From contig NZ_CP018192.1 of assembly GCF_001889525.1 (NCBI RefSeq), forward strand, positions 310,001-374,000: a DNA stretch of 64,000 nt, in the 5' to 3' direction. Under the pieces are notes generated by a model. It saw nothing but the letters and a program-made list of their open reading frames with translations. It searched no databases and was not told the origin of the DNA. The stretch is from Granulibacter bethesdensis (lineage in GTDB: Bacteria > Pseudomonadota > Alphaproteobacteria > Acetobacterales > Acetobacteraceae). A program made the position numbers and the translations under genes. Below are positions 25,353 to 29,338 of the stretch, one piece after another. How positions within the stretch are numbered: position 1 is the stretch's first letter; each line of letters starts with the position of its first letter.

Positions 25353-25428
25353 GGGCGCATAGCTCAGTTGGTAGAGCAGCTGACTCTTAATCAGCGGGTC
25401 CAAGGTTCGAGTCCTTGTGCGCCCACCA
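25353..25428 (+). tRNA. tRNA-Lys (anticodon CTT)
   Basis: Complete cloverleaf: acceptor GGGCGCA / TGCGCCC, D arm GCTC/GAGC, anticodon stem GCTGA / TCAGC around loop CTCTTAA (anticodon CTT), T arm CAAGG TTCGAGT CCTTG, encoded CCA. Its 3' half serves as the attachment site of the adjacent island and remains intact. Confidence 0.97.
25389..25428 (+). repeat. attL-like repeat: 3' end of tRNA-Lys
   Basis: Covers the anticodon-loop 3' side, T arm and acceptor 3' strand with CCA. It matches 29299-29338 at 38 of 40 positions; the first 25 bases are identical. Confidence 0.88.
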
Positions 25429-25499
25429 TCGCAAATCCGCAATCCAAGATTGCGGGTAACACTCAGGGTAACGGCAGCAGCAGAGGCGAGCTGCGTTGC

Positions 25500-25772
25500 T
25501 CAATCCATTTCGGGTATGTTTCGCTCAGTCAGCGAGAAGATCGCGGTGGTCAGTGCTAGGGCAATGCATGCGGAGGGCCGCACCGCTCTATGCAACTGCG
25601 CCTGCGCTGCCAGCTTTGCCGCGATGTCGGACAGGAGGGCGCCTATGGCATTCCTTGCCCTGTGCTCGGGTAACGCGTCCAGCACAATCTCTCCCGCATT
25701 GAGCACGAGGCTGCCCTTGTCGATCGCATCCGCGATCTCGAAGAGCTTTTGCGACTGTTGATCTGGGCTCAT
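25500..25772 (-). CDS. Hypothetical protein in tRNA-Lys island
   Basis: A 90-residue protein, largely helical in composition (KLFEIADAIDKGSLVLNAGE, then a hydrophobic C-terminal stretch ACIALALTTAIFSL that could be one membrane segment). I recognise no family. It starts at an ATG with GGAG about 11 nt upstream. A low-quality open frame on the same strand ends on the same ATGA overlap, hinting at a once-coupled pair. It may be a relic. Confidence 0.4.
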   Translation of the reverse strand: MSPDQQSQKLFEIADAIDKGSLVLNAGEIVLDALPEHRARNAIGALLSDIAAKLAAQAQLHRAVRPSACIALALTTAIFSLTERNIPEMD

Positions 25773-26262
25773 CGGAACCGCACTCCGACCAAACCTGGAA
25801 CTGATCCGGCGCAGGACGATGCAGACGCTGCCGTCACGGCCGCTTCGTTTCGGGCGTGTCGGGAAACCAAAACAATCGGTACATGACGCGCCTCTCGCGC
25901 CATGTGGCTGATTCTAGCCGGGTTGAGCCCCAGGCAGTCGATCAAGCTTGCTGGGGTCATTGATGAGACCTCGGCGGCCGCGGGGCGCATCGCGGTCATT
26001 CGGTGCCTTGGCGGGGTGAGTGTCAATCGGCCTATCGCGCTTGGATTTGGACGCTTGGTAGGACGTTGTTTTAGGAAGTGGCGAATGCCTCCGGCGCTTA
26101 GCTCAGCACCGATAGCGGAGTATATCCCGTCGCTCTTCGCCGGTGTGAACGGTCGAATCCACAAGGGAGAGCGACCCTACTACCAGAGTCACCCTCGCCC
26201 TATCTTCTTTGTTTAAGCGCCAAGAGGTATCTTGAACTTAGCGCTGATCCGTCAGGCGAACG
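25773..26262. other. Island DNA without a supportable gene
   Basis: Two open frames overlap on opposite strands (25769-26164 minus, 25902-26216 plus). Neither resembles a known family, neither has a good ribosome binding site, and each could be the shadow of the other. I assign no gene. Confidence 0.4.
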
Positions 26263-26270
26263 TGTGATGG

Positions 26271-26600
26271 GTGGCGGCCCCGCCGCCGATCGCCGTGGAC
26301 CAGAACCGCATCTTCGTGCATGCCGGTGTTGATCCGGCACTGCCGCTCGACTTTCAGATCGAGCGCGATTTGCTCTGGTCGTGGAAGTCGAATCGTCTCG
26401 GCCACCAGGGATGCTTCGTCGTTCACGGCCACACGCCGCATCGCAATGACCCGATCACCGATGGTCAGAGCATCGATCTCGACACACTGGCCTGGCACAC
26501 CGGGCGCCTGGTAATCGATGCCTTCGACGACAAACAGCCGGGTGGTCCAATCAACTTCATCGAGGTGCTGCGTGTTAACGGGGGCAACCCGGCCGTATGA
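26271..26600 (+). pseudogene. C-terminal fragment of a calcineurin-like serine/threonine phosphatase
   Basis: The frame encodes the second half of a metallophosphoesterase: FVHAGVDPALPLDFQ, ERDLLWSWK, and GCFVVHGHTPH with two of the metal-ligand histidines, then IDLDTLAWHTGRL. The N-terminal half with the GDxHG, GDYVDRG and GNHE motifs is absent upstream in any frame I can read. The usable ATG lies inside the domain. The product would lack half its metal site, so it is scored as a truncated relic of island decay. Confidence 0.75.
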
Positions 26601-26949
26601 AGCTCCAAGTCTTCTCTAGATCTCCACATCGACTTATCAGGCTCATGGCGGCTTGAACTCGTGGCTGGCGCTGGTGTGGTGCTATGCGCCGGCGACGTTT
26701 GTCACTGGCTGAGCGAAGCCGTGCGATCGCTGCCTGCGCGGGTACCGACGCGATCATCAGGGGCGTCGCCAGCGCAGCATCTACGGTCAGGCCATTAACG
26801 CGGGGGCCAAGCCAACAAAACAGCCGGAACTGAAAAAATCTTGCCTCTATCCGGCTGTGCCCACCGCCTTTGACTGCGCCCGTTCTCCTGACGCCTCTTG
26901 CGAACGACAGCGGCAAAGCTTAAGGTCAGTTCAGAAATTGGGCCCCAAA
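26601..26949. other. Island DNA, nothing recognisable
   Basis: About 350 bp between the phosphatase fragment and the glycosyltransferase gene. Both strands give only short or low-information frames. The composition shifts from GC-rich to AT-rich near 26920, close to the start of the glycosyltransferase gene, which suggests a junction between DNA of different origin. Confidence 0.4.
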
Positions 26950-28509: not shown

Positions 28510-28626
28510 AAGCGTCTAACCGCAGATTGGTCAAGCGCTCCATCACTTGGCTGCGGGTGATCAACTGACTGCTGCGCATATGACGCAAGTCTGATCAAGC
28601 TGAACCTTTGCCTCATACGCAGTGAC

Positions 28627-28857
28627 GTGCTCTCCGAGATCGACAACCCGACCACTTGGCACGAGGGCGTTCAGAAACTCTCGCCCTTGAATCTGCTGTG
28701 CCCCGGCTTTCGGGCCAACGAATGGCGCGAGTTTCACACGGTCACTAAGGCCTTTTTGGAGACACGCGCGTCCGAGGAGGCGAACATGCGGCGGACTGGC
28801 ATTGACCTCTTCTCCGTGCGCGACAAGCTCGGCGCGCCTCTTTTTTCGCAGACCTGA
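28627..28857 (+). CDS. Hypothetical short protein, possibly a gene fragment
   Basis: A 76-residue frame starting with GTG (LSEIDNPTTWHEGVQKL, later NEWREFHTVTKAFLETRA). The composition is protein-like and polar. I recognise no domain. A T6 run near 28842 precedes the stop; shifting frame there extends the reading by about 20 residues, so the C-terminus may be frameshifted. It is probably a remnant of an island gene. Confidence 0.35.
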   Translation: MLSEIDNPTTWHEGVQKLSPLNLLCPGFRANEWREFHTVTKAFLETRASEEANMRRTGIDLFSVRDKLGAPLFSQT

Positions 28858-28977
28858 CCGACAGCTCCATTGTTACGACCACGTTCACAGGACTAATAGT
28901 CACAAATACTTTTCGATTATCATCCGGTTGTAACTAACATACAACTACGGCAACAGTTCTGGCAGGGCAGACCATGC

Positions 28978-29283
28978 CACTGATGAGAATGCTTTCTATG
29001 TTTCGCCGCCTTCTTGTCGGCCGATGGGTTAGCGCCCTTCGTAACCTCGGCAAGGCACGCTACGCGAGTTCGCGGGCCGACGTGAGGTCAATACCGGGAT
29101 AGGTGCCGATGGTGGGCTTGCGTGTGACGCCGTCCGAACGGTAGCGCACGGCCCAAGATCGGGCGCCGGAGGGCTCTGCACAACGAGATAGAGGCCAGAG
29201 AGACTAAGCCGTCTGGTACTTTGCGCCGAGGCCGACCCGAGCTGCATCTTCTCTACCGCAAGTGCGGTCAGAGCCTTGCCCAT
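28978..29283 (-). pseudogene. Tyrosine recombinase (P4-type integrase), N-terminal remnant
   Basis: Minus-strand reading gives the arm-binding domain of a P4-like integrase in three pieces. They are MGKALTALAVEKM to GLYLVVQ in the first frame; GARSWAVRYRSDGVTRKP to IDLTSARELA, ending in TAG, in the second; and LAEVTKGANPSADKKAAK in the third. Thus at least two frameshifts occurred within about 300 bp. The core-binding and catalytic (R-H-R-Y) domains are not found. The fragment starts 16 bp inside the right-hand att repeat, the usual place for an integrase gene. Confidence 0.8.
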
Positions 29284-29298
29284 CTTGGCCTCGCTCAA

Positions 29299-29338
29299 AA
29301 TCAGCGGGTCCAAGGTTCGAGTCGTTGTGCGTCCACCA
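29299..29338 (+). repeat. attR-like repeat: partial copy of tRNA-Lys 3' end
   Basis: Direct copy of 25389-25428 with two mismatches (C to G at 29324 and C to T at 29332). It lacks the 5' half of a tRNA, so it is not a functional gene. It marks the right end of the island. Confidence 0.88.

Follow-up and report, generated by a model that had tools for sequence, protein, structure and literature searches.

Does the tRNA-Lys gene at this locus mark one end of a genomic island, and if so, what is left of the element that entered it? An earlier note on this DNA had proposed an old, immobile element with one remaining cargo gene. We examined the locus within a stretch of 64,000 nucleotides from Granulibacter bethesdensis, called the window below, and compared it with other genomes, plasmids and viral contigs. 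The locus is very probably a decayed tRNA island, left by an integrative element that entered tRNA-Lys(CTT), most likely by means of a P4-type integrase. The features on which this reading is built are as follows.

25353–25428, plus strand: tRNA-Lys (CTT), the likely integration target, intact (ARAGORN; Rfam RF00005, 74.4 bits)
25389–25428, plus strand: left putative attachment repeat, the tRNA 3' half, starting just past the anticodon and equal to the tRNA of both empty sites
25429–26949, no strand: left part of the insert, 59.9% GC; no intact gene was recognised among its scanned open frames, and both same-genus genomes lack it
25500–25772, minus strand: 90-aa open frame, a gene fragment or chance, without relatives where searched
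26271–26600, plus strand: C-terminal part of a NinI-like serine/threonine phosphatase gene (phrog_246), front half missing
26950–28509, plus strand: open cargo gene, 519 aa, for a multi-helix membrane protein, perhaps a GT-C-type glycosyltransferase (open frame; weak structural model)
28510–29000, no strand: right part of the insert; no gene was recognised, and the stop-free pieces searched had no family match
29001–29283, minus strand: integrase relic, N-terminal arm-DNA-binding domain of a P4-type tyrosine integrase (PF13356), start codon ATG at 29283, assigned by eye outside 29039–29203
29299–29338, plus strand: right putative attachment repeat, apparently the displaced 3' half of tRNA-Lys, 38 of 40 bases identical

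Flanking repeats and the empty site in the genus

The earlier note had claimed a 40-bp direct repeat of the tRNA-Lys 3' end, and this was confirmed. The copies at 25389–25428 and 29299–29338 differ only at repeat positions 26 and 34, and lengthening them leftwards gave 41 identities in 45 bases. The chance expectation for a repeat of 38 in 40 is about 3e-15 over both strands of the whole window. The next best place for it in the window, at 42845, matched at 27 of 40 positions and was put down to chance, with no tRNA called there by ARAGORN or Rfam. The first base of the repeat lies directly 3' of the anticodon (25386–25388; the anticodon starts at tRNA position 34), and 3,870 bp (25429–29298) separate the left copy from the right. 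As in a tDNA island, a complete tRNA gene marks one boundary of the insert, and the other is marked by a displaced piece of that gene lying in the same orientation. Among the other RNA calls in the window is a Bacterial small SRP RNA at 1614–1711 on the minus strand (Rfam, 59 bits).

We compared the flanks in 40 genomes, the own one included, of which only G001 and G002 belong to the same genus. This look at close relatives, which the earlier note had proposed, revealed an empty tRNA-Lys site in both, where a single 40-bp copy leads straight into the shared right flank. Both genomes matched 24900–25428 and 29299–30498 (query positions 1–529 and 4400–5599) as two adjacent pieces overlapping by 40 bp. 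Nothing from 25429–29298 was found in either, whether among the matches listed or in a separate search with that interval alone. In the alignment, the bases downstream of the right repeat correspond to those found downstream of the tRNA in G001 and G002 alike. It is the left copy that agrees fully with the tRNA 3' half at the two empty sites; both differences sit in the right copy. An uninterrupted site in close relatives, a further mark of tDNA islands, was therefore present in two of two same-genus genomes. The other 37 genomes were uninformative on the junction, because their listed matches were of the tRNA type or covered one flank only; none of these joined both flanks, and the longest single-flank match among them was 827 bp at 66% (G020). 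To the right of the insert lies a two-domain cytochrome c gene (29500–30498, plus strand) with similarity to SoxA/TsdA (NCBIfam SoxA, 91.3 bits, under the cut-off of 110); despite a GC3 that is low for the region, this gene occurs in G001 and G002 as well.

That the repeat arose by chance, or that a tRNA duplication came to enclose unrelated DNA, has a negligible probability in our view. Duplications of tRNA genes do occur, and G013 holds two whole tRNA-Lys(CTT) genes in tandem (770–845 and 1052–1127 of its region, L060, 206 bp apart). The right copy here, however, consists of nothing but the 3' half, is oriented as displacement would predict, and sits beside the integrase relic at the very junction of the empty sites, which themselves speak against a duplication. 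The empty sites bear differently on the direction of the change. Precise excision at the repeats would likewise leave one 40-bp copy, as observed in both genomes, and the insert could then be ancestral in the genus and have been lost from the two others. We consider this very unlikely, since it requires one or two losses on top of the gain and since the other 298 family genomes match the interior only in pieces of 42 and 24 bp; an element would once have been inserted even so.

The earlier note had also suggested looking for a full-length element. None with the same content turned up: neither plasmids nor the 299 family genomes yielded a full-length parent or relative, and only different elements were found in the same tRNA. 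At the DNA level the insert had no relatives in plasmids and matched three of the 299 family genomes, namely its own and two with the 42-bp and 24-bp pieces, which were taken as chance.

We propose that an integrative element recombined into tRNA-Lys(CTT), a reaction most likely catalysed by its own P4-type integrase. A crossover near the anticodon loop would have split the tRNA gene. The element would have supplied its own 3' half (25389–25428), so that the tRNA stayed whole, and the original 3' half of the host would have been displaced to the far end (29299–29338). In the decay that would have followed, the catalytic part and the intact frame of the integrase disappeared, the phosphatase gene was left without its front half, and a single foreign membrane gene, perhaps for a GT-C glycosyltransferase, remained open. 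The position of the crossover is suggested by the start of the repeat and by the anticodon loop being one known subsite of tDNA integration, as stated in an excerpt of PMC4383910. If the crossover lay there, the right copy is the displaced half of the host, and its two differences would have arisen after insertion. These 2 changes in 40 bases are comparable with the pairwise intergenic divergence from G001 and G002 (7% on the left, 12% on the right), so that the insertion may date from roughly the time at which these species parted; numbers this small allow nothing finer. The age assigned to the element in the earlier note is accordingly supported only in rough terms.

The integrase relic and the right end

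Judged by its sequence, the relic of a P4-type integrase beside the right repeat is genuine and corresponds to part of the PF13356 arm domain; the earlier note had claimed a recombinase relic here and had pointed to P4-type integrases. In a genome scan, PF13356 matched 29039–29182 with 32 bits (cut-off 27) over profile positions 27–71 of 83, with one TAG, and the 47-aa stop-free piece at 29060–29203 scored 29.5 bits. Only these two matches exceeded the cut-off: one of three shorter pieces was matched in Pfam, at a sub-threshold 22.7 bits, and a 94-aa frame at 29029–29313 had no match. The relic is spread across three frames of the minus strand and is broken by frame changes and the one in-frame TAG. 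A frame on a Microvirga lotononidis plasmid matched it with 57% identity over 42 columns, across the stop. Weak matches of integrase pieces to phrog_3423 (unknown function, E 1.4e-4) and phrog_1049 (E 0.09) were not used.

Profile searches found no catalytic domain (PF00589) within the insert. The genome has three PF00589 matches, all outside the insert, in open frames of 298, 309 and 407 aa, and the 407-aa frame at 1.30 Mb carries the only other PF13356 match of the genome. Of the two domains that define a P4-type tyrosine integrase, PF13356 is thus present and PF00589 was not found in the insert, which is why we regard the feature as a relic rather than a working integrase; the integrase found inside tDNA islands is here reduced to this remnant. 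The missing catalytic domain implies that the element would now be unable to move by itself, and it is to this extent that its description as immobile holds.

Only 15 bp (29284–29298) separate the start codon of the integrase relic from the right repeat, as opposed to 157 to 349 bp in five other loci. Where a distal-type 3' copy lies beside the integrase, the distance was 157 bp (L052), 209 bp (L055) and 349 bp (L054; measured from GTG, with later starts giving more). Where a whole tRNA lies beside it, the distance was 185 bp (L056) and 186 bp (L057, tRNA-Lys TTT; 132 bp from TTG). The last two loci belong to one genome, G036, in which PF13356 frames begin at these distances past two tRNA-Lys genes (CTT and TTT). 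From the short spacing, a loss or rearrangement at the right end is probable, and the simple reading is that a spacer disappeared during decay. It is unlikely that the 15-bp spacing is original, with the integrase promoter at the other end of the element (about 25429 onwards, leftward) and expression only once the element was circular, or with expression from host promoters next to the insertion site. A simple consensus scan of 25300–29500 found no promoter-like site on the minus strand, which counts against an original spacing. The promoter and terminator scans gave 1 and 2 sites, compared with shuffle means of 2.3 and 4.3.

The cargo gene and the rest of the interior

The interior gene is AT-rich for this region, as the earlier note had reported. 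The cargo gene has a GC content of 49.5% and a GC3 of 51.7%, as opposed to 60.4% GC for the window. Of seven neighbouring genes, six have a GC3 of 65–74%; the exception is the cytochrome c gene with 53.5%. Its closest relatives, at 38–40% identity, were three Spartobacteria/Verrucomicrobia proteins from three assemblies, and at a fourth locus the relative was split across two frames. What we take to be an NAD-kinase-like frame precedes the relative in three of these four loci (L038, L039 and L041); at L040 it lies among large frames that appear membrane-protein-like by eye. In the family, the gene matched two of 299 genomes, its own and one with a 30% partial match; in the class, it matched seven of 385, its own and six with partial matches. 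Plasmids gave no match, and 24 stretches of viral contigs fitted a pattern, none of which was confirmed. The composition and this spread of relatives indicate that the cargo gene is foreign.

Searches of Pfam, NCBIfam and PHROGs assigned the cargo protein to no family. Two of its three relatives scored 19.3 and 15.6 bits with PMT_2, whose cut-off is 26.1, and the single sequence match in the PDB, a profilin at E 0.82, was taken as chance. The AlphaFold model, based on four sequences, was weak (pLDDT 51.6, pTM 0.54). Foldseek with this low-confidence model returned ALG12, ALG9 (twice) and AftD at E<=0.001, with TM scores of 0.36–0.43 by query length and an rmsd of 14–16 Å. ArnT came later (E 0.085), and other proteins appeared at E>0.1, among them unrelated transporters from E 0.19. 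ALG12, ALG9, AftD and ArnT are all GT-C enzymes. The cargo protein is perhaps a GT-C-type glycosyltransferase, and the predicted enzyme would perhaps act on surface glycans.

The phosphatase piece to the left matched phrog_246 (E 2.5e-8, profile positions 294–390 of 417) and no Pfam or NCBIfam model. A plasmid search (103 records) showed up to 48.5% identity with Sinorhizobium genes; a whole Sinorhizobium meliloti homologue is 660 bp, and the match lies in its C-terminal half. As far as its reading frame and alignments tell, this is the second broken gene of the insert. The statement that the element retains one cargo gene is right for open genes and needs the refinement that the interior also holds this truncated one. 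The 90-aa frame had no Pfam match over the cut-off and no plasmid match, and among the 299 family genomes it was found in its own only. Weak matches of left-side frames to Amphi-Trp, TilS, DUF4254 and an acetyltransferase PHROG were not used. A 76-aa frame in the right part (28627–28857) had no plasmid match.

The interior may also have come together in more than one event, for example by later arrival of the low-GC gene or by collapse of two tandem islands at shared repeats. Such a composite origin, which is compatible with integration into the tRNA gene, is a possibility that we hold tentatively. The cargo gene differs in GC content from its sides (49.5% versus 58–60%); relatives of the phosphatase piece on plasmids and in phages belong to Alphaproteobacteria or their phages, whereas the best cargo relatives are from Spartobacteria; and the short spacing between integrase and repeat suggests rearrangement. 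However, the window holds no third copy of the repeat, no internal boundary was seen inside the insert, and genomic islands normally carry cargo of mixed origin.

Integration into tRNA-Lys(CTT) is an ordinary event, made plain here by the empty site of two related genomes, and the locus is a further case of a well-known kind, a tRNA island that has decayed around one open cargo gene. The earlier note was right in its facts and largely right in how it read them. It leaves the general picture unchanged and provides a clean example of how such islands decay, with the repeats and one cargo gene outlasting the integrase. A foreign membrane gene, perhaps for a glycosyltransferase, is still open here, and the two same-genus genomes are without it.

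Other elements in tRNA-Lys(CTT) and known systems

We took 16 regions for comparison: 12 from other genomes (L052–L063), chosen by flank or PF13356 matches, and four integrase loci from the own and same-genus genomes (L064–L067). In three of the 12, a single contig carried both a whole tRNA-Lys(CTT) and a distal copy of its 3' part, delimiting elements of 8.3 kb (G035), 9.3 kb (G022) and 4.6 kb (G026, where the copy is 82% identical over 45 bases). The integrase lies mid-element in G022, and PF13356 was not found in G026. In G035, an open 430-aa PF13356 integrase faces inwards beside the distal copy; its PF00589 score of 26.6 bits falls narrowly short of the 27.1-bit cut-off. The G035 element (L052) resembles the present one in its target, its displaced 3' copy and its inward PF13356 integrase beside that copy, but differs in its open integrase frame, its 157-bp spacer and its contents, an AAA ATPase and frames without a Pfam match. 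A tblastn comparison of its integrase with the relic gave nothing at E<=0.01, and the integrases of loci L044–L067 reached 46% identity with the relic at best, over 35 aa. Other Alphaproteobacteria hold other islands in tRNA-Lys(CTT). On a Leisingera plasmid (L069, 2384–4374), an arm-domain gene lies next to two genes annotated as integrases, like one integrase in pieces, beside an IS3 transposase.

No account of this island was found among the literature matches listed for Granulibacter islands (titles and abstract starts). According to an extract of PMC11476347, tRNA-Lys(CUU), gene 039, of Sinorhizobium meliloti is an integration hot spot for islands and prophages. This is the same isoacceptor as here, and one insertion in it is flanked by a 49-bp repeat equal to the tRNA 3' end; that insertion spans 137.5 kb, as opposed to the 3,870 bp between the repeats here. 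In the Islander collection of tDNA islands, the present island would probably fail the integrase test, with only part of the arm domain remaining. It otherwise corresponds to the anticodon-centred class as outlined in the excerpt of PMC4383910, in which a regenerated tRNA and a displaced 3' fragment of the same orientation mark the two ends and the repeat begins at the anticodon, as is the case here.
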